A stretch of DNA of 26,799 bases from a virus. A program made the translations under genes and the position numbers. The notes under the pieces are model-generated. The model ran no database searches. It saw nothing but the letters and a program-made list of their open reading frames with translations, and was not told the origin of the DNA. How positions within the stretch are numbered: position 1 is the stretch's first letter; every line of letters starts with the position of its first letter. The stretch spans positions 1 to 26,799 of IMG/VR virus record IMGVR_UViG_3300030329_002117; one strand, 5' to 3'. This document shows positions 2,216 through 21,902 of the stretch, piece after piece.

Positions 2216-4068
2216 TATACTAACTCCCCTCTGCCTTTTTCATTTAAAGCATTATTAATTATTGATGTTATTGTTCCTCTGTTTTCTACTAAAGCTTGGT
2301 CAAACCCTCTTGAATCTATTGTATTAATATTAAAATTAACATTAACAGCACCACCAGCAGTTCCTCTTGCCGCTTGTGTAATTTGACCTGAAGAATTGGG
2401 TATAAACATTTCTGCACCTCTTTCTCCGACAATAGTTGGCTGTCCTTTTCTTACTGCACCACCAGATGCAAAAGTTGGTAAAAAACTTGATGCAACATTA
2501 GCAAAAGTGCTAATTAAATTTTGTTTATTTTGTTTTTTTTGTGTGTTTAAAATATCTTTTTCTATCGCTAATTGTTTTAATTTTTGACCTATAACAGTAT
2601 TGTTCATAAATATTAAAACAGATTGTCTAGCAATTTGTTCTATTAATGCGGCAAGTATTCTAGCAAATACATTGATAGCTAAATTTTTTAAAGTGTCTGT
2701 TAATTTTTCTCCAAACACTATTGATCTTGCTAAAGCTTGTGATGTTTTTGTAATTGCATCATTTATCCCCTCTGCAATAATCATGTGCATATTTTTAAAC
2801 TTGTCTTGAATATCACTTAAAGCACCTCTATTTAGTTCATCAAACTTGTTAATAGCTTTTTCAGTTGCATTAGGAATTTTTACAGATAGTTCATGTTCAA
2901 AATCATGTAATATAATATTTGAATTTTTAAAAACTTCTTTTATTGGTATTAAAGTTTTTTGTAAATCTCTTGCGTCAGGTAAAACATTTTTAACACCATC
3001 AGAAAAATCTTCAAAACTATTTTTCATATCATCAAATAGTTTTTCCATACCTTTAAATGCTACAAATATTGCACCACCTTTTACTATAGCTTTTGCTATT
3101 CCTAATAATCCACCTTTTGTAAATAGAGTTGCAAATCCAAAAGTCATCATAGCTTTTGCAACATTTGTTATTGCTATTGCAAGGTTAGTGAATAATGTAA
3201 CAACTTTAACAGATATTAGTAATTGAATTAAAATAACAAATTTATCCATATTATTTTTCATAACAATAACTGCATCTGCAACTTTTTTTACTGCAAAACC
3301 TAAAGCTATTCCTATGTCTTGTGCTATTTGATCTATTTGTTTTGAGTTTTGCTCTAAAAATTTATCTAAAGCACCAAACTCTTTTTTAAGACTTTCAAAA
3401 AGACCAGCTTCTAATATTACTTTTTTAAAATTAAAAACTTTATCTCCAATCATAGATAAAGTACCAGTAAATGTTTCTGCTAAATCATCAGTTGCTTTTC
3501 CAAATCTTCCGCCTTTTCCAAAAACTTCTTCAAATCTTTTAACTGTTGCTTCGATAGATACTGTTGCACCAGCTTGGAAACCAAGCATATTTCTAACACC
3601 TTTTTCTCTGAATAAGTCTGCCGCACCAATACCAGCACTAAATGATCTTTGTATTTGTTCTGCTGTTGTTCTAAAATCTAATCCTGTTACAGCCGCAACA
3701 TTACCAGTTATTTCTAACATTTTTTGAAGATCGTTAGCATTGTCTGTAACTGTTGCTAAAATACCTGAACCTGATTGTATTTCTTCTAATGAAAAAGGAA
3801 CTCTTGATGCAAACTTGACCATATTGTCAAATGCTTTTGCACCCTCATTTGTATCTTTAAGTAAAAATTTTAATCGAACTCTTAAATTTTCTAATTCTTT
3901 ACCAGTGCTTACTAAATTTCTGATAACAAGACCAGCACCAAGACCTATGAAAGCATTTTGTAAATTAAAAACAGCACCTTTTACTTTTGCTAAAGCACCT
4001 TGCACTCTACCTAAAGCTTGTTTAGTTTTATCTCGTGCTACTATGTCTATATTTAATTTTTGTGCCAT
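2215..4068 (-). CDS. Tail tape measure protein
   Basis: A 617-residue, mainly helical protein that sets tail length and occupies the tail lumen. It is the longest gene in the window and follows the tail chaperone pair, the standard position. The N-terminus (LNIDIVARDKTKQALGRVQGAL) is a typical tape-measure start, followed by a phage-tail tape measure core with VPFSLEEIQSGSGILA and LDFRTTAEQIQRSFSAG. Hydrophobic stretches lie around residues 280-345 (VILIQLLISVKVVTLFTNLA). Near the C-terminus is FASGGAVRKGQPTIVGERG followed by AEMFIP, a very common tape-measure signature. At 617 residues the tail would be relatively short if the usual 1.5 angstrom per residue rule holds. ATG at 4068 overlaps the stop of the frameshifted chaperone frame. 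Confidence 0.92.
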   Translation of the reverse strand: MAQKLNIDIVARDKTKQALGRVQGALAKVKGAVFNLQNAFIGLGAGLVIRNLVSTGKELENLRVRLKFLLKDTNEGAKAFDNMVKFASRVPFSLEEIQSGSGILATVTDNANDLQKMLEITGNVAAVTGLDFRTTAEQIQRSFSAGIGAADLFREKGVRNMLGFQAGATVSIEATVKRFEEVFGKGGRFGKATDDLAETFTGTLSMIGDKVFNFKKVILEAGLFESLKKEFGALDKFLEQNSKQIDQIAQDIGIALGFAVKKVADAVIVMKNNMDKFVILIQLLISVKVVTLFTNLAIAITNVAKAMMTFGFATLFTKGGLLGIAKAIVKGGAIFVAFKGMEKLFDDMKNSFEDFSDGVKNVLPDARDLQKTLIPIKEVFKNSNIILHDFEHELSVKIPNATEKAINKFDELNRGALSDIQDKFKNMHMIIAEGINDAITKTSQALARSIVFGEKLTDTLKNLAINVFARILAALIEQIARQSVLIFMNNTVIGQKLKQLAIEKDILNTQKKQNKQNLISTFANVASSFLPTFASGGAVRKGQPTIVGERGAEMFIPNSSGQITQAARGTAGGAVNVNFNINTIDSRGFDQALVENRGTITSIINNALNEKGRGELV

Positions 4069-4597
4069 TATTTATATTTCCTTGCTTCTGCTAAGTTCTT
4101 TTGTTTTTTATACTCATCTTGCTCTTTTTTCAAGTAAGCTATCCAAAGATTATAATGGCTCATAGGCATATCTAATACCTTTTGAATTGGAAGTTTTAGT
4201 CTATCAGCAACCACCAACAAAGATTGTATGTCAGGGTCGCTTGTTACTTTTTTTGAGCTTCTTCTATCGATGTATCTGCAAGTATTTTATTTGCTATTGT
4301 TGCAATAACATTTGAATCTGCTTTTTTTTGTAAAGCAAGTTTATCTAATGGGTCAAAAGCTTTTACTAAATCGCCTTTATCATTTTTAATCATAAGTTTC
4401 ATCATTAACAGATCAACAAGAACTGTTAAATCTTGAAAGTTACTTGATTTTTTAAATATTATATTTTTCTGTTCAAGTGTTAAAGGTTCTGAATAAAAAA
4501 CAGATGGATTACCATGCTCGTCTTTCCACTCAGGAACTTCAATAGTAATAGTTTGCAGAGTCTCAAAATGAGTTTTTACTCTATCTATAACTGACAT
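4068..4597 (-). CDS. Tail assembly chaperone, -1 frameshift fusion (lambda GT-like)
   Basis: Ribosomes that slip back one base at 4253-4247 do not stop at TAA 4246-4244. They continue into an open -1 frame (GTA ACA AGC ...) for 59 more codons and stop at TAA 4070-4068, overlapping the tape-measure ATG. The product would be about 176 residues: the 117-residue G-like part plus a T-like tail containing LLVVADRLKLPIQKVLDMP and SHYNLWIAYLKKEQDEYKK. A hydrophobic-aromatic 'MP...Y..W.AY' segment at this position is typical of the second part of tail chaperones in long-tailed phages. In lambda the GT fusion loads the tape measure and tail tube subunits. This frame has no good start of its own, which supports expression by frameshift. 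Confidence 0.85.
4244..4597 (-). CDS. Tail assembly chaperone, short form (lambda G-like)
   Basis: A 117-residue protein between the tail tube gene and the tape measure gene, the invariable place of tail assembly chaperones. The sequence contains PSVFYSEPLTLEQKNIIFK and ends EEAQKK, with the last three codons CAA AAA AAG forming the slippery site directly before TAA. This short form should be made by most ribosomes and the longer form by frameshifting. The phage virion does not normally contain either form. A 9-base gap separates it from the tail tube gene upstream. Confidence 0.85.
   Translation of the reverse strand: MSVIDRVKTHFETLQTITIEVPEWKDEHGNPSVFYSEPLTLEQKNIIFKKSSNFQDLTVLVDLLMMKLMIKNDKGDLVKAFDPLDKLALQKKADSNVIATIANKILADTSIEEAQKK
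4247..4253 (-). other. Programmed -1 ribosomal frameshift site, A AAA AAG
   Basis: On the minus strand the chaperone gene ends GCT CAA AAA AAG TAA. The zero-frame heptamer A AAA AAG is the same slippery sequence used by E. coli dnaX. Here the zero-frame stop follows at once, which is expected to raise slippage. The -1 frame is open for 59 codons and ends exactly at the tape-measure start. No strong downstream hairpin was obvious by eye. Confidence 0.85.
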
Positions 4598-8714: not shown

Positions 8715-9710
8715 TTATATTATAAGTTCGCCTTTACTATCATACCAATCAGGATTGACATAACTAAACTGATGTCTGCAATTATACCCACCTCTTACTA
8801 CAAATGGGTTGCCTGATTTTTTACCTGACCAAGACCTACTTTGCCATAAATCTTTGATCTCGTTGATGGTAAAAAGTCCACCTTTTCTTTTGTTATATAC
8901 TCCATTTACTAGGTTTTTGCAAAGTTCTCTAGTTGTTGGTATTACATCTCCATAGTATTTAACAAAAGTCAGCCCAGCATCCCTTGATTTATTGAAGTTT
9001 AAGGTTGCATCAAAATCTCTTAATGAATCGTTTAATATCTGACTAGCATATCTTTTCATGTTTTCTCCAGCCCTATCTCTAGCGAATTTAGTCTGAAGTG
9101 TCTGTATTGATCTATCTACTTGTGCCTTTTTCGACTTGTTATATTTGTTTCTATTAATATAATCTATAAGCTTTTGTGCTTCTGCATCATCTGAACTTGC
9201 ATAAATACCATTGATGGTTTGTCTAAGTTCTTTTTCTAATTCTGTAAATTCATTTCCTACTAATACATTCTGATATGTAACCTCTGATAGTTTTCTAGTA
9301 AATGTATTTGATACATCTTTAAACTGTGTAAAGTATTGTTGTTTTAGATTTTTGACTAAGGCTAAATCTCCTTTTGTAAGTTCTTGAAACTCAACAGGAA
9401 TATTACCTATTCTTTTAAATGCTTTCTCAACTCTTTTTGCTTGTTTAGTAAAACCCTCTCTAACAACTGTATCTGACCAAGCTAGATATTCTCTATCAAG
9501 TATTGCTTTTATTTTTGGTCTAATTGCTATTGCACTTTGAAGTTCTATAAGTCTGCCGTCAGAAGTTCTTCTTAAATCTTTATTTGCTAATGCTACTACT
9601 TCTCTTTCTATTTTATCTAAAGCTTTTACGAGTGATCTGTAATAATTTGCTTCTGCTATCTCAATTTGTTTGATTCGATATTCTGTTGATTTTTTTACTA
9701 TATCTGACAT
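8715..9710 (-). CDS. MuF-like minor head protein
   Basis: A 331-residue protein between the plus-strand gene and the scaffold gene. The N-terminal 230 residues are helical and charged. The C-terminus carries the MuF-domain pattern: YYGDVIPTTRELCKNLVNG, then FTINEIKDLW, and GNPFVVRGGYNCRHQFSYV, with the conserved GGYNCRH close to the end. MuF-like proteins are minor head components bound near the portal and are often ejected with DNA. It starts at an ATG some 200 bases after the inserted plus-strand unit begins, so this transcript may need its own promoter, which I could not identify with certainty. Confidence 0.82.
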   Translation of the reverse strand: MSDIVKKSTEYRIKQIEIAEANYYRSLVKALDKIEREVVALANKDLRRTSDGRLIELQSAIAIRPKIKAILDREYLAWSDTVVREGFTKQAKRVEKAFKRIGNIPVEFQELTKGDLALVKNLKQQYFTQFKDVSNTFTRKLSEVTYQNVLVGNEFTELEKELRQTINGIYASSDDAEAQKLIDYINRNKYNKSKKAQVDRSIQTLQTKFARDRAGENMKRYASQILNDSLRDFDATLNFNKSRDAGLTFVKYYGDVIPTTRELCKNLVNGVYNKRKGGLFTINEIKDLWQSRSWSGKKSGNPFVVRGGYNCRHQFSYVNPDWYDSKGELII

Positions 9711-9846
9711 AAAAATTGTCTTATCAAAAAAACATCAAAAACGCAAAAAGTGTTTTAGTGTCGCATCAACCAGCTAACACCCTAAAATTTCAATCGTCTA
9801 CTTTTCAACAAGTTCGTCAAAACTAAAAAAATTAAAAAAGTGAATA

Positions 9847-9855
9847 TGGTATAAT
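9847..9855 (+). promoter_or_regulatory. Extended -10 promoter for the plus-strand gene in the head module
   Basis: TGGTATAAT is a consensus TATAAT with the TGn extension, located 58 bases before the start codon. The upstream -35 position is only A-rich (around 9827-9832), as expected for an extended -10 promoter. It points away from the head genes. The surrounding 9711-9846 stretch is A-rich and contains no gene. Confidence 0.65.
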
Positions 9856-9913
9856 GGGTTATGAAAAATAAAAATGTAAATTTAATTGTTTTCATAGAAA
9901 GGAGAAAATCTTT

Positions 9914-10246
9914 ATGGGATATAAATTAAAACCAAGTATTCCTATTGCAGAAAATACACCTGATAATGTAACTAAATTCACTATGGGTTATTATTATGCA
10001 GATGAACTTGCTGGAGTTTTTTATGAATATGACGACAAGTCAAATTTAAAAGAAACACATTTTGTTTTTAATTGTGGTTATAATGTAAAGTATTATATCT
10101 ATACTACAAAAACAATTCTTTTAAAAGAATATTCAGCAGTATATTTGGATAGTTTAGCTGATGAGTGTCCTGATAAATTTAGAAAAAAAGGACACCCACA
10201 AGATAAAGATAACCAAAAGTTTTTAGGTTATAAACATTGGAAATAA
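9914..10246 (+). CDS. Inserted plus-strand hypothetical protein (110 aa), moron-like
   Basis: A 110-residue gene on the opposite strand from all surrounding head genes, with AAAGGAG 9 bases before the ATG, its own promoter at 9847-9855 and a terminator at 10256-10281. The protein is soluble and rich in tyrosine: TMGYYYADELAGVFYEYDD, then FVFNCGYNVKYYIYTTKTI and a C-terminal FRKKGHPQDKDNQKFLGYKH. I do not recognise a family. Self-contained genes with promoter and terminator inside a virion module are classic morons, often acting on host physiology or superinfection. No homology can be claimed here. Confidence 0.8.
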   Translation: MGYKLKPSIPIAENTPDNVTKFTMGYYYADELAGVFYEYDDKSNLKETHFVFNCGYNVKYYIYTTKTILLKEYSAVYLDSLADECPDKFRKKGHPQDKDNQKFLGYKHWK

Positions 10247-10255
10247 TGTAAAAAT

Positions 10256-10281
10256 AAGGCGATCAGAAATGGTCGCCTTTT
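10256..10281 (+). terminator. Bidirectional intrinsic terminator
   Basis: AAGGCGATC (10256-10264) pairs with GGTCGCCTT (10271-10279) around the loop AGAAAT, a 9-bp stem with one G-T pair. TTTT follows on the plus strand, and on the minus strand ATTTTTAC follows, so both directions have a T-run. It ends the inserted gene and also overlaps the portal stop codon, and would stop transcripts coming from terminase and portal. Confidence 0.85.
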
Positions 10282-11695
10282 AAATTTCTTCTTGCTCTAC
10301 TTCTTGATCTTCTTGTTCAGTTTCATCTTGTGTAAATTGACCAACTTCTGAAGCTGAGTCTATTTCATCAAATATCTCATTTAATTTTTCGTTGTCATCT
10401 ACTACTGCTCTTGCAATTTCTTTATCTACTTCTTTCATAAATGTAGGAGAGCCAATACTTAGTGATTTAGCTTGTTGATAGTAAATTAAATCAGTAGCAT
10501 AATCTCTTATGTTAAATGAATCAGGATAATTTATTTCGCCATCAAATGTAGCATTTTGAAATAGTGCATATAGTCTAAATATTTGTTCTTCTGCTATTTG
10601 TAGATTGTCTGCTTTTTCTGATAGTCTTGCATTAAGTAATTCAAATTCTGTTTGTAAAGCTATTCCTGAAGATACTGCTTGTTTAGTTGTTCTTACTGCT
10701 CCTGTATGTGCTATTCTATTTATTGCATTAACTTTATTATTTATTGATTCCATAATAGCTTGTAAGTTTTGACCTGATGGTTGAAGTAGATATGGTTTTA
10801 AATTAGGCTCTAATTCTTCAGGCATTTCTATTACAGCACCAGCACCAGCAGACGCATTAACCGATGGAGTCTTAACTAGACTAGGATGATTAGTTAATCT
10901 GATAAGCTGTTCTACTTCTGACAATTCATTATAGATAGCTTTTTGCAAATCAGCTATGTCTGTTAGGTCTGATTGACCAATTCCCTTTTTGTGCGATTTG
11001 GAATTGTATAAGATAACTGCTGGTATCTTGCCAATCAGATTATCGGCAGTATCTATTATTGTCGGTTCGTCTCTGTCTGACTTTGCATAGACAGTTTCAA
11101 TCCGATCAAGATACCATAATCTAAAGTAAGTTCCGCCATCTTTATCTACTTCTTCTCTTACTTTAAGATAATCTAAAGTGTATTTACCATTTATTTCTCT
11201 TTTGAAATTCCAATCTAAAACATTCTCAGGTGTTAATATTGATATGTAAGGTCTTATTTCTTGATCTAGTTCTTCTGCTCTAGTGTTTGTTGTTACTTTT
11301 GGTTTATCTAAAACCATAAAACAATGTCCATAAATAGAAGCATAGTTTTGTGCTTGTTTCATAACAGAGTCAAAGTGGTTTCCGTCTAAGTCAGAGTCTT
11401 TTAAGAATGATTCTAAACTAGGTTCATCAGCCATAGCACCAAAATCTCTTGATGCTTTTACTCTAAATAAAAATGATGAGTAGATTTGAATAATGTTTTT
11501 ACAATGATTATCGCATGGAGTATTAGCAAGTCTTTGATTAAACTCGTTGTCTAATTCTAAATTGTATCTGTTAAGATATTGACCAAGTGTGTAATCATAT
11601 CCACCATTAAATGATCTAATATAATATTCCCATTGATTTACATTTTCTTTATAATCTTTATGTACCTCAAATGCTTCGTCTCGTGAATATGCCAT
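10280..11695 (-). CDS. Portal protein
   Basis: A 471-residue portal protein directly after the large terminase (3 bases between stop and start). Features include MAYSRDEAFEVHKDYKENVN at the start, GGYDYTLGQYLNRY, a long middle domain with LRLWYLD-like segments (YFRLWYLDRIETVYA) and helical regions such as IADLQKAIYNELSEVEQLIR and TKQAVSSGIALQTEFELLNA, typical of the portal stem/wing. The C-terminus is very acidic (DETEQEDQEVEQEEI). The portal forms the dodecameric DNA channel at one capsid vertex and docks the terminase. Confidence 0.88.
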   Translation of the reverse strand: MAYSRDEAFEVHKDYKENVNQWEYYIRSFNGGYDYTLGQYLNRYNLELDNEFNQRLANTPCDNHCKNIIQIYSSFLFRVKASRDFGAMADEPSLESFLKDSDLDGNHFDSVMKQAQNYASIYGHCFMVLDKPKVTTNTRAEELDQEIRPYISILTPENVLDWNFKREINGKYTLDYLKVREEVDKDGGTYFRLWYLDRIETVYAKSDRDEPTIIDTADNLIGKIPAVILYNSKSHKKGIGQSDLTDIADLQKAIYNELSEVEQLIRLTNHPSLVKTPSVNASAGAGAVIEMPEELEPNLKPYLLQPSGQNLQAIMESINNKVNAINRIAHTGAVRTTKQAVSSGIALQTEFELLNARLSEKADNLQIAEEQIFRLYALFQNATFDGEINYPDSFNIRDYATDLIYYQQAKSLSIGSPTFMKEVDKEIARAVVDDNEKLNEIFDEIDSASEVGQFTQDETEQEDQEVEQEEI

Positions 11696-16237: not shown

Positions 16238-16522
16238 TTATATTAATATCTTTTTTAACTCCTTAATGCAACCAATAGGAAAAACATTACGATCACTAAA
16301 ACTTTCTTCGTTCTCATCATAACTAGCAAATGTTTTTAAATGTTTCTTATCTTTAGAATAAACATATCCTGTTGTTGTCATCAAAGCTGGTTTCATAGCA
16401 TCAAATTCTTTAGAACTTGCGTGTCCTGAATCTCCTAAAATATCCCACCACTTAATCTCATAAAAATAAAACTTTTTTTTGTTAATTGAAATGTGTCTAA
16501 ATTTTGACTTTTTTTTAACCAT
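16238..16522 (-). CDS. Conserved small hypothetical protein (94 aa)
   Basis: A 94-residue alpha/beta protein starting on the stop of the preceding 44-residue gene (TAATG). Notable words are FYFYEIKWWDILGDSGHASS, EFDAMKPALMTTTGYVYSKD and FPIGCIKELKKIL. The 'W.DI.GDSG.A...E...M.PA' pattern recurs in small proteins of other marine and cyanobacterial phages as I remember, without known function. It lies just before the methyltransferase gene. Confidence 0.68.
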   Translation of the reverse strand: MVKKKSKFRHISINKKKFYFYEIKWWDILGDSGHASSKEFDAMKPALMTTTGYVYSKDKKHLKTFASYDENEESFSDRNVFPIGCIKELKKILI

Positions 16523-16656
16523 TAATGTTTGCTCTTATCTATTGATTCTACTATTGCTCTGTAATATTCTAGTTGCCTTTTTAGCATTTTATTTTCAATA
16601 GACAGCTTAATCAATCTTTTTCTGACATATTTAAAAATACGCAACAAACCTATCAT
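16522..16656 (-). CDS. 44-residue basic helical protein
   Basis: The gap between the replication-like gene and 16522 holds a 44-codon gene starting with an ATGA overlap and ending on the next ATG (TAATG). It is a basic amphipathic helix (IGLLRIFKYVRKRLIKL) leading into a leucine/lysine heptad-like region (NKMLKRQLEYYRAIVES). It could bind membrane or DNA. Family unknown. Confidence 0.6.
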   Translation of the reverse strand: MIGLLRIFKYVRKRLIKLSIENKMLKRQLEYYRAIVESIDKSKH

Positions 16657-17219
16657 TGGTATTCTTTTATTGGTTCATCTTTCCACTTGTGTTTCAAATA
16701 CTGTTTTCCAGCTTTTTCTAGCAAATGATACTCTCCCCACTCGCCAACTTTTTTATAACCATTATTCACATCCTTGCTTGACCCTATACTAATAGAGGTA
16801 TTAGTATTATGTGTATTAGTATCAGGCGATAGCTGGTGTTGAGGTGGTTGCACATCCTCTAAGTATTGGTATTTGTCATAGTTTAAGCACTCAATTATGC
16901 TTACTTTTCGGCTAGGGTGGTTAGAGGTGGGCAAAAGGTGGTGTATTCTTACATTAATCATCTTCCTATTTTTAAGTCTTTTTATAAAAGTCCTCATTTC
17001 AGAATAAGTAATACCCCATATTTCAGCATTTTTTCTTAACGGAAATATTAACTCTGCTTTTTTTAGAAATATTTTGTTATCTAAAAAGTTCAGGGTCTTA
17101 TCTCTGTGAGTTGCCTGACTAATCATATATATCCATATTGCGCATTGTTTTAGATTTTTAAATACAGGAGATTTCCATATCTTTCTCCAAACTAAAAAAT
17201 ACCCACTATTGCGTTCCAT
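16653..17219 (-). CDS. Winged-helix replication-organiser-like protein
   Basis: A 188-residue protein with GAGAGGATAGAAG ahead of its ATG. The first 100 residues resemble a DnaD/phage replisome-organiser N-terminus: GYFLVWRKIWKSPVFKNLKQ, AIWIYMISQATHRDKT, then IFLKKAELIFPLRKNAEIWG and EMRTFIKRLKNRKMINVRIH, where the last part is a wHTH ending before a wing. The rest (residues 105-160) is Ser/Thr/Asn-rich, and the C-terminal segment (WGEYHLLEKAGKQYLKHKWK) is charged. It may bind the phage origin and recruit host helicase. No helicase or primase is visible in this window. The assignment is by architecture only. Confidence 0.65.
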   Translation of the reverse strand: MERNSGYFLVWRKIWKSPVFKNLKQCAIWIYMISQATHRDKTLNFLDNKIFLKKAELIFPLRKNAEIWGITYSEMRTFIKRLKNRKMINVRIHHLLPTSNHPSRKVSIIECLNYDKYQYLEDVQPPQHQLSPDTNTHNTNTSISIGSSKDVNNGYKKVGEWGEYHLLEKAGKQYLKHKWKDEPIKEYQ

Positions 17220-17509
17220 TCTTCTATCCTCTCTCTCAATTGTTTTTGTAATTGTTCTTCTGTTCCATATTTAGACTCAAAAGCTTTTTTACCTAAATGA
17301 ACAGATATTTTACCTGTCCTATGGTGTGAAGCACATAAAGGCAAAATGTTAAAATGTGAGGGTCTTAGACCCATTCCTGTATGCTTTCTGATGTGATGTA
17401 TCTCGCAAGGAACAAAAACTTTACCATCTATCTCACAAGCTATACATCCATAATCAGCTACTTGTTGCATCCACTTTTTCTCTGCTACTGTTGGTCTTTT
17501 TTTTGCCAT
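17192..17509 (-). CDS. Ref-like HNH endonuclease
   Basis: A 105-residue protein in the style of phage P1 Ref and its short phage relatives: GCIACEIDGKVFVPCEIHHI (residues 21-40), then GMGLRPSHFNILPLCASHH (45-63) and VHLGKKAFESKYGTE. Cys 22, 25, 35 and 59 with His 38, 39, 62 and 63 give the HNH metal sites. Ref is a RecA-dependent DNA endonuclease; this one is shorter, lacking the N-terminal arm of P1 Ref. It probably acts in recombination or branch processing with the exonuclease and SSB encoded upstream. It overlaps neighbours at both ends. Confidence 0.85.
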   Translation of the reverse strand: MAKKRPTVAEKKWMQQVADYGCIACEIDGKVFVPCEIHHIRKHTGMGLRPSHFNILPLCASHHRTGKISVHLGKKAFESKYGTEEQLQKQLRERIEEWNAIVGIF

Positions 17510-17775
17510 ACTATCGCTGTTTTACCATAAGGTGTTTGTCGTCTATTACAACTATCTTCTACAAGTCCAAGAAGCTGTAATTCTCTGACTCTAGCACATA
17601 CACTAGATAATGGCATTTCTAACTCTCTTGCAATTTCATAGTTTGTAGATTCTTGAAACTTAATATATTCATAAACTTGTTCTCTTTTTGTCAATTTATC
17701 TTTTTTATTATTAAAAGCAGATTTACTTGTATCTGTATAATTATAAGCTTGATAGTCTATTTCTAATTGTTTCAT
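17485..17775 (-). CDS. Winged-helix DNA-binding protein (96 aa)
   Basis: A 96-residue protein whose middle reads KREQVYEYIKFQESTNYEIA, then LEMPLSSVCARVRELQLLGL, and ends with a wing, VEDSCNRRQTPYGKTAIVW. This 'T..EIA..L..P.S.V.AR.REL...GLV..S..RR.TP.G..A.VW' pattern is a common small phage winged-helix protein. It could repress or activate the early genes, or act in replication. AGGAAA precedes the start. It overlaps the Ref-like gene by 25 bp. Confidence 0.8.
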   Translation of the reverse strand: MKQLEIDYQAYNYTDTSKSAFNNKKDKLTKREQVYEYIKFQESTNYEIARELEMPLSSVCARVRELQLLGLVEDSCNRRQTPYGKTAIVWQKKDQQ

Positions 17776-17972: not shown

Positions 17973-18088
17973 AACAATATTGCTCCTATAATTAAACCAA
18001 GTATGAAGCCGACTATATATTCTCGATTATATAGCGACCACACACTCAGTTTTTCTTTTAGTTTATTAAAATGGTGGTAAATCATCAT
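17969..18088 (-). CDS. 39-residue single-span membrane protein
   Basis: A 40-codon gene (including stop) that starts inside the last codons of the SSB gene (ATG at 18088, or at 18085) and ends on the next ATG. After a basic N-terminal part (HHFNKLKEKLSVWSL) it has one membrane span, EYIVGFILGLIIGAILL. Function unknown; it is notable as a membrane peptide within a DNA-metabolism operon. Confidence 0.65.
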   Translation of the reverse strand: MMIYHHFNKLKEKLSVWSLYNREYIVGFILGLIIGAILL

Positions 18089-18485
18089 CAAAAGATTCAT
18101 CAGGTTTAGCCACTTGCTGTTGCACCTGTGGAATTGCTTGTGCGATTGGTTTCATACCATCCACATTAGGTTGAGGTTTATAAGGTTTAATCATAATAAA
18201 ACTCAAAACCATTTGTGTATCTCCTTGATCGTATTTATTTGGAGTCTCAATAGTTTGAGTTTTAGCCATCCATTTACCTGTATAACCTTGTTTAACAAAG
18301 TTTTGAACTCCCTCTGTTAAATACCATTCATTTATTTGTGATAGCTTATATTTTTTCTTTGTTAAGCTACAAGTAAATAAACTTTTGGCATCAGCTTTGT
18401 ATTCAAATTTAGGTGCTTTTTTACCTGTTGGTCTTAAATACAATGTTAATGCACAAAAAGGTGTTTTTTGTTGTTGTTGGTACAT
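18066..18485 (-). CDS. ssb: Single-stranded DNA-binding protein
   Basis: A 139-residue protein with a short OB-fold-like N-terminal part (KTPFCALTLYLRPTGKKAPK, then CSLTKKKYKLSQINEWYLTE and AKTQTIETPNKYDQGDTQMV), a Gln/Pro-rich linker (residues 105-130), and the acidic tip ESFDDDLPPF at the end. The final DDDLPPF is the SSB tail that binds partner proteins such as exonucleases, helicase loaders and RecO. It differs from bacterial SSB in its core and is typical of compact phage SSBs. CAAAGGAGCAACTA stands before the start; the gene directly follows the PD-(D/E)XK nuclease. Confidence 0.85.
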   Translation of the reverse strand: MYQQQQKTPFCALTLYLRPTGKKAPKFEYKADAKSLFTCSLTKKKYKLSQINEWYLTEGVQNFVKQGYTGKWMAKTQTIETPNKYDQGDTQMVLSFIMIKPYKPQPNVDGMKPIAQAIPQVQQQVAKPDESFDDDLPPF

Positions 18486-19255
18486 TAGTTGCTCCTTTGT
18501 TTATTATATTCCTCTTTTCTTTTGTTAAAGTCTTTTTCAAGACTTAAAAGATATTTACAAGCTTTAAAACCTTTTAGATACTTAGGCTTGACTTGAAATA
18601 CCCTCATTTCAACTTTCTTAACAGGTTCTTTAGGAATATTTATAACTGCTAAGAAGTCTATTTTTAAATTAGTAGAATCTTCAACTAATTTTTTATAAGT
18701 ATGAATTTGAATTGGCATATCTATATAAAAATCTTTAGATGTTTTAAAATCCAATATTCCAATCTTACCTTTATATTTAACCAAGCAATCCAATGTTCCG
18801 CACACATCAAGTTCTTTTGAATAGTATGTTTTTTCTGTCTCGATTACTTTGATTTTTTTGCTATCCCAAAACTTCTTAAAATCAGCAAACATTTTTTTAA
18901 GAGGTTCAGTAGTAGGAGTAATAATTTCTTTACCAAGAATATAATCTTCAGCTAAAGAGTGCATATTAGTTCCAATGTTTCTAGCATCTTCTTTTATTTG
19001 TTTTACCCTATATTTAAGTTCATCAAGTTTTTTTTGTGACTCATCAATAGGAACTTTATTTATTTTATCTAATTGCATCTGTGCTTGATAAACGCAATCT
19101 TCTGACCACCATATAAGAGGTTTTTTACCAAATCTTTCTCCTATAATATTTGTCACTCCTTGTTTTATTACACCATTAACTTTATACCTTGCAGACCTAC
19201 TGTTTGGGCTAAAGTCAATTTCATTTCCGTGTTTATCTTTACTCTTGATTATCAT
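18485..19255 (-). CDS. PD-(D/E)XK exonuclease (RecB/Cas4-like)
   Basis: A 256-residue nuclease. Its catalytic core is visible as LDVCGTLDCLVKYKGKIGIL (GTLD at 153-156) then DFKTSK at 169-174 and, downstream, MPIQIHTYKKLV (QxxxY motif). His 99 in NIGTNMHSLAEDYI fits the N-terminal H motif of the RecB-type family. It would degrade or process double-stranded DNA during recombination or replication, working with the SSB encoded next to it. No annealing protein (RecT, Erf, Sak) is recognisable in the window, although the unknown gene at 20320-20853 is a possible candidate. It overlaps the XRE regulator gene by 17 bp. Confidence 0.85.
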   Translation of the reverse strand: MIIKSKDKHGNEIDFSPNSRSARYKVNGVIKQGVTNIIGERFGKKPLIWWSEDCVYQAQMQLDKINKVPIDESQKKLDELKYRVKQIKEDARNIGTNMHSLAEDYILGKEIITPTTEPLKKMFADFKKFWDSKKIKVIETEKTYYSKELDVCGTLDCLVKYKGKIGILDFKTSKDFYIDMPIQIHTYKKLVEDSTNLKIDFLAVINIPKEPVKKVEMRVFQVKPKYLKGFKACKYLLSLEKDFNKRKEEYNKQRSN

Positions 19256-19679
19256 TTTTTTCTCTCTTTCTTCTATGATATTTATGTGCTTCTACTATAT
19301 GACTATCTGAAATGTCGCTTGAAATATCATATTTATTTACATATTTATTTTTATTTATAAATTTGTAACCATTCTCAGTAATTGGCTGAACAAAGTAGTT
19401 TCTATCACACTTTAGAAACTCTGCTAACTTCAATTCATTCATAATACTTACAGAATTTATACCTTTCTCGTATTTTTGAATTTGTTGAAATGTAACATTA
19501 ATTGCTTTTGCCACTCTTGTCTGAGTATAGCCACGCATTAGTCTCATCTTTTTTAATTGCAAACCATAAATCTTTTTCAAAACTTTATCGTTTTGATGAT
19601 CTGATACACCAAACATATTAAGATTTGGTGGAATCAAATGACTTATTTCTGCAATCTTATCTTGGTTTTTTAGGTACAT
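19239..19679 (-). CDS. XRE-family transcriptional regulator
   Basis: A 146-residue DNA-binding protein. Residues 40-98 form an XRE HTH: LQLKKMRLMRGYTQTRVAKA, then INVTFQQIQKYEKGINSVSI and KLAEFLKCDRNYFV. The N-terminal 35 residues (IAEISHLIPPNLNMFGVSDH) and a C-terminal tail from about 105 (NKYVNKYDISSDISDS) are polar. The HTH word 'VTFQQIQKYEKG' is very close to alphaproteobacterial XRE regulators, which suggests a host of that class. It is the best candidate for the protein binding the dyad at 21934-21969. There is no integrase, so it is not clear evidence of lysogeny. Confidence 0.88.
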   Translation of the reverse strand: MYLKNQDKIAEISHLIPPNLNMFGVSDHQNDKVLKKIYGLQLKKMRLMRGYTQTRVAKAINVTFQQIQKYEKGINSVSIMNELKLAEFLKCDRNYFVQPITENGYKFINKNKYVNKYDISSDISDSHIVEAHKYHRRKREKNDNQE

Positions 19680-19866
19680 AAAAAGCCCATTCCTTTCGTT
19701 CTCTCTCTGTCAATTTATTAAATTGACCTTGCCAACAAGTCCGACAGAGTAATGACTCGTTGAAAAGGGTACTACCCTCAAACCATGCTAATTTTTCTAC
19801 TTTATCATTAAAGCATCTAGCACAGATATAAGATAATTTTTTTGTATGTGTTGATAGTTTAGGCAT
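19657..19866 (-). CDS. Zinc-ribbon-like small protein (69 aa)
   Basis: A 69-residue protein with two CxxC pairs, C15-C18 (SYICARCFND) and C41-C44 (SLLCRTCWQG), a clear zinc ribbon. The C-terminal part is charged (FNKLTERERKEWAFY). Start preceded by GAGGAACAAATAA. It overlaps the XRE gene by 23 bp, which hints at joint expression, and may modulate transcription. Function unknown. Confidence 0.72.
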   Translation of the reverse strand: MPKLSTHTKKLSYICARCFNDKVEKLAWFEGSTLFNESLLCRTCWQGQFNKLTERERKEWAFYVPKKPR

Positions 19867-20320
19867 TTATTTGTTCCTCAAATGGTATGTCTCTTTTTAC
19901 TTTTTTCAATTCCATGCCAAAAAGTTTTAAATCAAATATCGCCAAATCATTATCATTTGAGTTATATCTAATATGAAATACCCAACCTCGATCTACTAAT
20001 TTATATCCATCAGGGTCATTCATAATAATTTTTGGAATTGAATCTAATCTGTGTTCTTCACACATAATAGTAATTACCTTTTGTTCAACAGATTTTTCAG
20101 ATTCAAAATACATAAAAAAACCATTTTTATTTGGTTTAATATTTGTCATTCCAGCTTGATATAAACAATAAAAAATTTTACATAACTCAGGTCTTTTTTC
20201 GTAAATTTTACAACCAACACCAATATCACAATGATTGCACCATTTATATTCAGGTTTGAAATTTTTTATGTATGGAAGTTTGCAACATAAATTACAATCT
20301 CCACACTCTCTTTTTTTCAT
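19859..20320 (-). CDS. YkgJ-like Cys-cluster protein
   Basis: A 153-residue protein with cysteines at 6, 9, 12, 13, 28, 31, 37, 47 and 52: KRECGDCNLCCKLPYI, WCNHCDIGVGCKIYEKRPE and LCKIFYC. The 'CxxCxxCC...C......P..C' pattern matches the YkgJ/FliB-like zinc- or iron-chelating domain (family of uncertain biochemical role). The C-terminal 100 residues (VITIMCEEHRLDSIPKIIMN and so on) form a separate soluble part. Phage copies are rare enough to be noteworthy. It starts on the stop of the preceding gene (TAATG) after AAAAAGGATATTAACT. Confidence 0.75.
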   Translation of the reverse strand: MKKRECGDCNLCCKLPYIKNFKPEYKWCNHCDIGVGCKIYEKRPELCKIFYCLYQAGMTNIKPNKNGFFMYFESEKSVEQKVITIMCEEHRLDSIPKIIMNDPDGYKLVDRGWVFHIRYNSNDNDLAIFDLKLFGMELKKVKRDIPFEEQINA

Positions 20321-20853
20321 TAGTTAATATCCTTTTTAGTTTTTTTAACCATCATAAAACCTCTTGCATAAGGTCTTGGGTCATTAAAAAGTTTTGTTGT
20401 TTCCAATACTTTAAAACCTTTTAATTCAGCTATGCGTCTCATATCATCTCCCAAATCAAGTTCTAAAAATCTAAAAATATTTTCCACACCTTTATCTGTA
20501 AATTTAACCCACAGATATTTTTTGACCTTTTTAATTTTTATAAAACCAAGTCTATTTAATTTGTATAATTCAGCATAAACAAGAAGTTTTAACTCCTCTT
20601 TAGGTGTGAACATACCAATTAAAAGATTTTGAGTTTTTTTATCTCGTAAAGTATCTAAAATTTTATTAACTATTTGTACTGCTTGAATTTCACAATAAAT
20701 AGTTTTACCACCACTTTTAAATCTTTTATCTAACTCAAAAAATATTCTTGATGATAAATAATTGATTGCTGGTTTTTTAGAATTACTTGCTAACAAACCA
20801 ACAACAAAATTTCTTTTGTCTTTTGAAACATTTAGAAATTTATATTTCATCAT
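20320..20853 (-). CDS. Hypothetical protein of the early operon (177 aa)
   Basis: A 177-residue basic protein of unknown family: KDKRNFVVGLLASNSKKPAI, then IYCEIQAVQIVNKILDTLRD, KEELKLLVYAELYKLNRLGF with KKVKKYLWVKFTDKGVENIF. The segment from about 95 to 140 reads like a small winged helix (helix, turn, helix, 'KKYLWVKFTDKG'). It lies between the lipoprotein/early genes and the YkgJ-like gene, so it is likely an early-expressed DNA-associated protein. Either of two ATGs (20853 or 20850) could be used. Confidence 0.65.
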   Translation of the reverse strand: MMKYKFLNVSKDKRNFVVGLLASNSKKPAINYLSSRIFFELDKRFKSGGKTIYCEIQAVQIVNKILDTLRDKKTQNLLIGMFTPKEELKLLVYAELYKLNRLGFIKIKKVKKYLWVKFTDKGVENIFRFLELDLGDDMRRIAELKGFKVLETTKLFNDPRPYARGFMMVKKTKKDIN

Positions 20854-21064
20854 TATCTTCTTTCTTATTTACAGAAAATTTTTCTTTTTTTCTTCTAGTT
20901 ACTTTTGTTACACCCTCTGATCTAGGTGTAGGTAGGGTGCTTCTATCAACCACTTGATGACCAACTCTAATAGGTTTTTTATTTAAAAGACCTTTATCAT
21001 CTAAAGCTTTTAAACAAGCTTGATCTAATAAAAAATCTGGGTCAAGTATTTTAATTGAGGACAT
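20840..21064 (-). CDS. Small hypothetical protein (74 aa)
   Basis: A 74-residue protein with GGGGAGAAATCATA before its ATG. It begins SSIKILDPDFLLDQACLKAL and ends in a basic/acidic tail (VTRRKKEKFSVNKKEDNDEI), with a central PIRVGHQVVDRSTLPTPRSE. I do not recognise it. It overlaps the lipoprotein gene by 14 bp upstream and the next gene by 14 bp downstream. Confidence 0.62.
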   Translation of the reverse strand: MSSIKILDPDFLLDQACLKALDDKGLLNKKPIRVGHQVVDRSTLPTPRSEGVTKVTRRKKEKFSVNKKEDNDEI

Positions 21065-21326
21065 TATGATTTCTCCCCTCTAAGCATTTTCTGTAAATAT
21101 CTGTATATTGAGTCTCAGCTTTAGGAGACAATATCCAAAAGTTAATATTACTTAAAAATGTCGTATTGTTTTTTGCAAGTTTCTCACACAAAATTATATC
21201 GTTTGAAATGTTACTTGCGTTAGATGTTTCAAACTTAGACTTGCCTTTTGTGTCAATGATTGGGTCAAATTTTGCACAACCATTTAAAAAAGCGACAAGT
21301 ATCGCTAGTAAAAGTATGTTTTTCAT
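21051..21326 (-). CDS. Small lipoprotein (91 aa)
   Basis: A 91-residue protein with a lipoprotein signal peptide: MKNILLLAILVAFLNGCAK, where Leu-Asn-Gly-Cys (Cys 17) is the lipobox. The mature part contains PIIDTKGKSKFETSNASNIS, LCEKLAKNNTTFLSNINFWI and PKAETQYTDIYRKCLEGRNH. The 'D..G......N..N...DI..C..LA..N' and 'E..Y..IYRKCL.GRGH' style resembles small lipoproteins I recall in SAR11 and its phages, so it may have been taken from the host. It could act at the cell envelope, for example in superinfection exclusion; that is inference. Confidence 0.8.
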   Translation of the reverse strand: MKNILLLAILVAFLNGCAKFDPIIDTKGKSKFETSNASNISNDIILCEKLAKNNTTFLSNINFWILSPKAETQYTDIYRKCLEGRNHNVLN

Positions 21327-21328
21327 AA

Positions 21329-21637
21329 CTATCTGTCCTCTCTCTTTATAAAGTCGCTGGATGATATTTTATTTGGTGCATCTTCCAAGCAACTTGTTTC
21401 TTTTGAAACCTCAGTTTCTTTAGCTTTTCCAACAGATCTTGTTCTTTCACTATCTGCTTGTCGTACTTCGCTTGAAGCTTCACTATTTGCTTTTGCATTT
21501 AGTTTCTCCTTTACAAAGTTTTCCACCTCTATCACAGGTGTTTTGGGATTAAATATAACCCCAAAATCTTTATACACCTTTTTTAGCAAATTAAATGACT
21601 TATTTCTAGTGTTAATTGATAATATTAATTTAGGCAT
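21329..21637 (-). CDS. Hypothetical protein of the early operon (102 aa)
   Basis: Start chosen at the ATG at 21637: it overlaps the upstream stop (TAATG) and has GGGGGAGAGC directly before it, whereas the longer frame begins at a TTG inside that ribosome binding site. The protein begins MPKLILSINTRNKSFNLLKK, continues VYKDFGVIFNPKTP and VIEVENFVKEKL, and has a low-complexity C-terminal half rich in A, E, S and R (SSEVRQADSERTRSVGK). The function is unknown. Confidence 0.6.
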   Translation of the reverse strand: MPKLILSINTRNKSFNLLKKVYKDFGVIFNPKTPVIEVENFVKEKLNAKANSEASSEVRQADSERTRSVGKAKETEVSKETSCLEDAPNKISSSDFIKREDR

Positions 21638-21870
21638 TATGCTCTCCCCCAAGTTGCTTTATCATTTGTAATAGTAGAATCTTTTAAAAGATCATTCATT
21701 GATACAATCCAAACTTGACAATCACTTAATCTAGTTGGTGCATAAACAATAAAAGTAGCATAACCATTTTTTTTTACTTCCATTATATAACCTTTTACTG
21801 TTTCTTTTCTTGATTTATAAATGAATACTGTTTTATCAGAAATCCATTTATTTATTTTTTCTTTGTTCAT
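21637..21870 (-). CDS. First gene of the leftward early operon (77 aa, SH3-like candidate)
   Basis: Start chosen at 21870 because AAAGGAGAGAGT precedes this ATG; the frame could be extended to an ATG at 21894, which has no ribosome binding site. The protein has NKEKINKWISDKTVFIYKSR, ETVKGYIMEVKKNGYATFIV and a segment SDCQVWIVSMNDLLKD. The strand-rich pattern V...V.G.I....G....FIV is compatible with a small beta-barrel (SH3/KOW-like). It is the first gene after the divergent control region, so it is probably expressed very early. Confidence 0.68.
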   Translation of the reverse strand: MNKEKINKWISDKTVFIYKSRKETVKGYIMEVKKNGYATFIVYAPTRLSDCQVWIVSMNDLLKDSTITNDKATWGRA

Positions 21871-21902
21871 ACTCTCTCCTTTTGTTTTTTTCATAATGTC
21901 CT

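Follow-up and report, generated by a model that had tools for sequence, protein, structure and literature searches.

A counter-oriented gene between the portal and MuF-like genes of a pelagiphage probably occupies an expression socket with a resident promoter and exchangeable cargo

Between the portal gene and a MuF-like gene of a marine phage, a single small gene runs against the direction of all its neighbours, which raises the question of how it came to lie within a head operon and from which promoter it could be read. The window analysed here is a stretch of 26,799 nucleotides (IMG/VR record IMGVR_UViG_3300030329_002117). Its terminase, portal, scaffold, capsid and tail genes match those of the pelagiphages HTVC026P, HTVC202P, HTVC111P and HTVC112P, which places it, by sequence similarity, among the HTVC111P-type pelagiphages (the name used in PMC10504331). 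As an earlier, sequence-only reading of the window had stated, the head genes around the unit all lie on the minus strand and the unit lies on the plus strand. The same reading had named the gene downstream of the portal gene MuF; its position and a C-terminal NCRH motif agree with this, but no MuF model in Pfam or PHROG matches at significance, and the gene is called MuF-like below. The features of the locus are collected in Table 1.

Table 1. Features of the portal/MuF-like locus in window coordinates.
Feature	Position	Strand	Basis
MuF-like head gene, 331 aa, flanking	8715..9710	-	Position and motif
Resident leader, kept in relatives with a different gene	9711..9872	+	Homology to L023, L255 and L160 (to 9883 in L045)
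Hairpin-like AAAACGCAAAAAGTGTTTT at module start, possible weak terminator, absent in some copies	9738..9756	+	Sequence; varies between contexts
Module core: TGTCGCATCAA (9759-9769), AACACCCTAAAA (9776-9787), TCGTCTA (9794-9800)	9759..9800	+	38 non-redundant copies
Extended -10 promoter element TGGTATAATG	9847..9856	+	67-69 bp from core in 61 of 70 instances
Segment that is exchanged (5'UTR, cargo ORF, terminator)	9873..10279	+	No homology in L023, L255, L045, L160
Shine-Dalgarno sequence AGGAG	9900..9904	+	Sequence
Cargo ORF, 110 aa, Tyr-rich, without known family	9914..10246	+	ORF list, family searches, codon test
Terminator hairpin that may be bidirectional, immediately before the portal stop codon	10256..10279	+	Fold; compensatory stem changes in relatives
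Portal gene, 471 aa, flanking	10280..11695	-	PF05133, E 2.4e-11; phrog_145, E 5.5e-64

The insert comprises 569 bp, and the self-contained plus-strand unit that had been proposed for it is borne out, in that an extended -10 element, a Shine-Dalgarno sequence, an ORF and a hairpin are all found in the sequence; no -35 element is recognisable upstream of the extended -10 in the window. The hairpin has a folding energy of -15.1 kcal/mol on the plus strand and -10.6 kcal/mol on the minus strand, and it is flanked by U-rich sequence at either end. Hairpins that closely resemble it lie beside the portal stop at the end of 52 inserts, most of them flanked by T-rich sequence in the same way, and the stem shows compensatory changes among relatives (GGCGATC:GGTCGCC, GGCCATC:GGTGGCC, GGCAATC:GGTTGCC); 14 of the 66 inserts described below have no terminator hairpin. 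As had been suggested, a bidirectional terminator might plausibly interrupt the head operon. By its predicted elements, the insert is a self-contained, counter-oriented transcription unit.

In the 5'UTR of the window (9861-9904), the sequence ATGAAAA...TTTTCAT lies just 5' of the Shine-Dalgarno sequence, and the cassettes L194 and L230 have a similar arrangement (TTATGAA..TTCATAGAAAGGA), possibly a shared 5'-end stem. The window version of this stem (9861-9895), which was spotted by eye, is not the predicted minimum-energy fold and was set aside.

Portal/MuF-like junctions of related phages were collected by scans with alignments of the MuF-like and portal proteins, and further loci were then added by sequence patterns. 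The alignment scans alone gave 73 distinct empty and 35 occupied junctions; after addition of the pattern-drawn loci there were 80 distinct empty and 66 occupied ones, an occupied share that is inflated by the pattern-based drawing. At an empty junction, the portal stop and the MuF-like start codon (ATG) are 3-4 bp apart, while occupied junctions hold inserts of 304 to 932 bp, 63 of the 66 with an ORF of 51-205 aa that runs opposite to the head genes. These counter-oriented ORFs fall into 36 unrelated families. Among isolates, HTVC026P and HTVC112P have an empty site, and HTVC202P and HTVC111P carry counter-oriented genes (70 aa and 152 aa, respectively) unrelated to that of the window. In two of the exceptions, L044 and L049, the junction holds a DNA methyltransferase-like gene (about 240-260 aa, named by motif and not by model) on the strand of the head genes. 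The site is thus empty in most relatives and filled with unrelated counter-oriented genes in others, which agrees with the earlier reading of the unit as a moron; relatives that are empty or variable at this site are the opposite of the universal conservation which that reading had named as speaking for an ordinary structural gene. Comparison of relatives identifies the junction as an insertion hotspot. In the literature searched, no description of this hotspot or of the promoter module described below was found, which is weak evidence of novelty.

Some further differences between the window and the isolates concern neighbouring regions. The early module of the window (18066-21894), with an HTH gene at 19239-19679 and its neighbours, shares the strand of the head genes in the window and in HTVC026P; in HTVC111P and HTVC202P it runs against them, which is suggestive of an inversion of this module. 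The MuF-like protein of HTVC026P (L002:1325-3151) has 608 aa instead of the usual approximately 330, and its C-terminal extension bears a HEFGHH motif resembling that of zinc metallopeptidases, with a sub-threshold Pfam match only. The HTVC026P portal protein is 96% identical to that of the window; for the MuF-like protein, identity over the shared part falls to 70%, and this drop suggests a recombination boundary. In HTVC111P, gp45 (18179-18331) is annotated on the minus strand; an overlapping plus-strand frame (18151-18300) matches the window ORF at 4068-4220 with 72% identity, so that gp45 was probably assigned to the wrong strand.

Conservation within the unit is highest upstream of the cargo, in a module of about 100 bp (9738-9856). 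The interval given by the sequence-only reading, 9847-10281, omits this best-conserved part, at 9738-9800. With the module, which that reading had missed, the locus appears no longer as one inserted gene but as a promoter that stays in place while its cargo can be exchanged. A match to the non-coding sequence in front of the window promoter was first seen in HTVC106P, a member of another phage group, where it precedes an unrelated gene of 61 aa. Pattern searches located the module in 70 distinct places; the contigs are metagenomic, many of them short, and these instances are not all independent. By upstream context they fall into five groups, each with 6 to 20 members, and several singletons, on contigs related to HTVC111P-type, HTVC106P and HTVC023P-type phages. 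Over 38 non-redundant copies, the consensus reads TGTCGCAYCWA-N6-AACACCCTAAAA, followed by a CGTCTA or GCTCTA block, A/T tracts and TGnTATAATG, and the core is almost invariant. Although the intervening sequence differs, the core and the extended -10 element are separated by 67-69 bp in 61 of the 70 instances. It is this fixed distance that supports TGGTATAATG as a promoter element, as its match alone is not significant (0.57 expected by chance in the window), and the conserved spacing across a diverged spacer argues for a transcription complex that spans the interval.

Each of eight records checked as a whole, and HTVC106P as a ninth, contains one copy of the module, and none was found in eleven other isolate genomes searched, HTVC027P among them. 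The latter phage has a counter-oriented cluster, gp32-gp34, upstream of its large terminase gene (16499-17670, L343) and without the module. As gp33 and gp34 belong to a separate early-to-middle expression cluster (PMC12753301), this cluster is a possible functional parallel. Candidates for the origin and reading of the module were also considered and rejected. An 18-mer search of genome contigs for host copies of the core matched only unrelated bacteria and was attributed to chance. The HTH gene of the phage was discarded as a regulator of the promoter module, because its relatives occur in HTVC026P, HTVC111P and HTVC202P, all without the module. A boxA-like (antitermination) reading of the TCGTCTA/TGCTCTA block was dropped, since many copies have CGTCTA in place of GCTCTA.

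Three relatives, L023, L255 and L160, share the flanks of the window and carry other genes. Homology to them ends at 9872, 17 bp past the -10 element, and resumes at 10280 with the portal stop (at 10289 in L045). The 110-aa protein of the window is a singleton in the clustering of cassette proteins, and the exchange of its gene is therefore inferred from relatives. Of 14 cargo families, eight are found behind the module in two or more contexts. The median identity of modules is 0.78 for the same context with different cargo and 0.60 for different contexts with the same cargo, at a background of 0.64, and in 47 of 60 cases, against a mean of 13 and a maximum of 24 in shuffles, a module and its nearest different-cargo neighbour share their context. 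As the instances are not fully independent, the values are to be read as a description of the pattern, not as exact probabilities. As the main result, the module tracks its genomic context and not the gene behind it. Together with the occurrence of the same gene families behind different resident copies, this indicates that the promoter stays and the cargo is exchanged. The link between module and cargo is not absolute: L308 has a different leader, although its cargo belongs to a family of the module class.

A core that is common to several loci and phage groups and lies close to the crossovers could instead serve recombination or attachment and mobilise whole cassettes, with no regulatory role. 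This is unlikely, as the core remains with its context while the cargo moves, and the fixed distance to the -10 element across a diverged spacer would be needless for a recombination site; in addition, no integrase is annotated in HTVC111P or HTVC106P. Slightly less probable still is a small RNA, or an antisense control of the MuF-like gene, encoded by the conserved stretch, whose place upstream of the cargo would then be a matter of chance. The higher conservation of the core than of the promoter and the hairpin in many copies would fit such an RNA, but the hairpin is not universal, Rfam gives no match, and the module always points towards the cargo, even in contexts without a MuF-like gene upstream.

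A subset of module-driven cassettes, to which the window does not belong, has a conserved 5'UTR and, right after the ORF stop, a segment of about 14-22 bp complementary to the end of this 5'UTR (L014, L045, L052, L074, L083, L196, L200, L211-L214, L227, L228, L240, L242 and L249). The paired arms surround ORFs of at least three unrelated families, and seven different arm sequences keep their pairing, for example GTGAATACGACTA/TAGTCGTATTTCAC and GTGAATATGATCCGGC/GCCGGATCATGTTCAC. They could form a panhandle in the mRNA or mark the two ends of a mobile unit as terminal inverted repeats; a search of Rfam gave no match for these cassettes.

A second class of promoter appears to be present at this site, in the counter-oriented inserts without the module. 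In 46 of 47 of these inserts (L003, L004, L036 and 43 others; the exception is L308), a repeat GTTC-N7-GTTC is located at a distance of 3-8 bp from the start codon of the MuF-like gene; its N7 takes eight different sequences, and the repeat occurs at none of the 80 empty junctions. The repeat is situated about 35 bp upstream of the likely -35 element of the cargo promoter. The LexA box of alphaproteobacteria has the form GTTC-N7-GTTC (PMC3323433), and both lexA and recA are present in SAR11 (PMC2864753, PMC12753301); the repeat is therefore described here as LexA-box-like. No cargo family is common to the two classes, compared with 10 mixed families expected. Outside the portal/MuF-like locus, the string ATTTGACCTTTATATCAA of the LexA-class leader is found in unrelated contexts and without the box, so that this leader looks locus-specific. 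The repeat could also derive from duplicated 3' codons of the portal gene (GAACAR repeats), but the spacing of exactly seven nucleotides, kept while their sequence varies, speaks for selection.

The 110-aa ORF has coding character, with a codon use like that of the phage's own genes: its codon log-likelihood exceeds that of all 2000 shuffles, and an ORF of at least 110 aa arises in 8 of 2000 simulated inserts. Its GC content (26.4%) is below that of the portal (31.6%) and MuF-like (31.3%) genes and within the range of the phage's genes (24.7-38.1%). The protein was rightly described as tyrosine-rich, its 13 Tyr in 110 residues (11.8%) being the highest share among 70 ORFs from the portal/MuF-like site, and as having no recognisable family, as it has no match in Pfam, PHROG or PADLOC. 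A tblastn search against phages returned one insignificant match of 25 residues (HTVC022P, E 0.5), and no homologues were found in viral contigs. Structure prediction, which had been proposed as a check, was run with AlphaFold2 without relatives and gave no usable model (mean pLDDT 40). Judging from the pattern only, the host or competing phages are the most likely targets of the product, in defence, counter-defence or takeover, rather than a role in the virion. Its location among head genes would suit an ordinary head or assembly gene; this is very improbable for a gene that is absent from most relatives, is replaced there by unrelated genes, and has the opposite orientation with, at the sequence level, its own promoter and terminator. 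A selfish homing element with its own endonuclease, as might be suggested by the homing endonucleases found between head genes in freshwater relatives, such as the counter-oriented HNH gene next to the capsid gene of DSL-LC06, can hardly account for 36 unrelated families at one site, and neither 35 representative cassette proteins nor the window ORF have a nuclease domain in Pfam, PHROG or PADLOC.

As read from the comparison of relatives, the locus combines a hotspot, counter-orientation, a resident promoter module and exchanged cargo. The account that we consider probable is that it serves as an expression socket for accessory genes in a pelagiphage, with a resident promoter and exchangeable cargo. 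The module would be read by the host RNA polymerase, and a putative factor would bind the core about 70 bp upstream of the -10 element, where it could help or restrain the polymerase. This factor is more likely to come from the host than from the phage, given that the module is common to phage groups whose head genes differ. Reading by the host polymerase would also allow the cargo to be transcribed independently of the leftward late genes. Exchange may proceed by recombination, with one crossover just downstream of the -10 element and the second at the terminator or beyond it. More tentatively, and with somewhat less than even confidence, the core and extended -10 may constitute a previously undescribed regulatory element of several SAR11 phage groups, present once per genome, read by a conserved host factor and used as a common socket for trading single accessory genes; in sister phages, a LexA-box module would have taken its place at the same site.

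Few organisms in the sea are as abundant as SAR11 bacteria and their phages, and to our knowledge most pelagiphage genes are without known function. A conserved promoter in front of exchangeable single genes would provide a sequence handle for accessory, probably host-interaction, genes across metagenomes, and the portal/MuF-like locus would mark a plug-in site for such genes in viruses of the ocean's commonest bacteria. The putative module-binding factor represents a concrete target for the largely unstudied transcription control in SAR11 and its phages.

Several known systems share features with this locus. Integrons likewise have a resident promoter that serves exchangeable cargo, but no integrase is annotated in the complete HTVC111P and HTVC106P genomes, and instead of a cassette array there is one cargo unit of one or two genes. 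In the anti-CRISPR locus of Pseudomonas Mu-like phages (PMC4378225), small unrelated ORFs also trade places at one site. That locus has a regulator gene (g9/aca) beside the cargo, whereas the window unit is a single ORF; no HTH domain was found among the 35 representative cassette proteins, and there is no evidence for CRISPR inhibition by the cargo. The Tab moron of Pseudomonas phage JBD26, which provides phage defence from the prophage (PMC10884400), is like the window unit a small opposite-strand gene with its own promoter inside a late operon, in this case between the terminase genes. No sequence relation between the two was found, and no integrase is annotated in the close relatives of the pelagiphage.

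A moron is a single coding region with its own promoter and terminator, located between genes that are adjacent in relatives (PMC4378225), as in lambdoid and Pseudomonas Mu-like phages, where such insertions often vary between phages. The window unit agrees with this at the sequence level, being inserted between adjacent genes with a predicted promoter and a predicted terminator of its own. Morons come and go as whole units together with their promoter; here, in contrast, the promoter would be a resident module of several phage groups, and the gene is exchanged. In this respect, the locus resembles the PeSLs (promoter-early stem-loop cassettes) of T4-type phages, in which a conserved promoter and stem-loop are associated with the shuffling of small genes (cited in PMC4503421 and PMC4177764). 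Common to both are gene shuffling and a conserved composite of promoter and stem-loop, represented here by the module with an upstream hairpin in many of its copies and by the terminator hairpin behind the cargo. PeSLs occur in many copies per genome and in T4-type phages, whereas the module is single in each of nine module-bearing records, occurs in HTVC111P-type and HTVC106P-type pelagiphages, and has a long conserved core about 70 bp upstream of its promoter. Because of the differences in copy number and phage type, the unit is best classified from its sequence not as a member of the PeSLs but as a moron with PeSL-like promoter-terminator shuffling.
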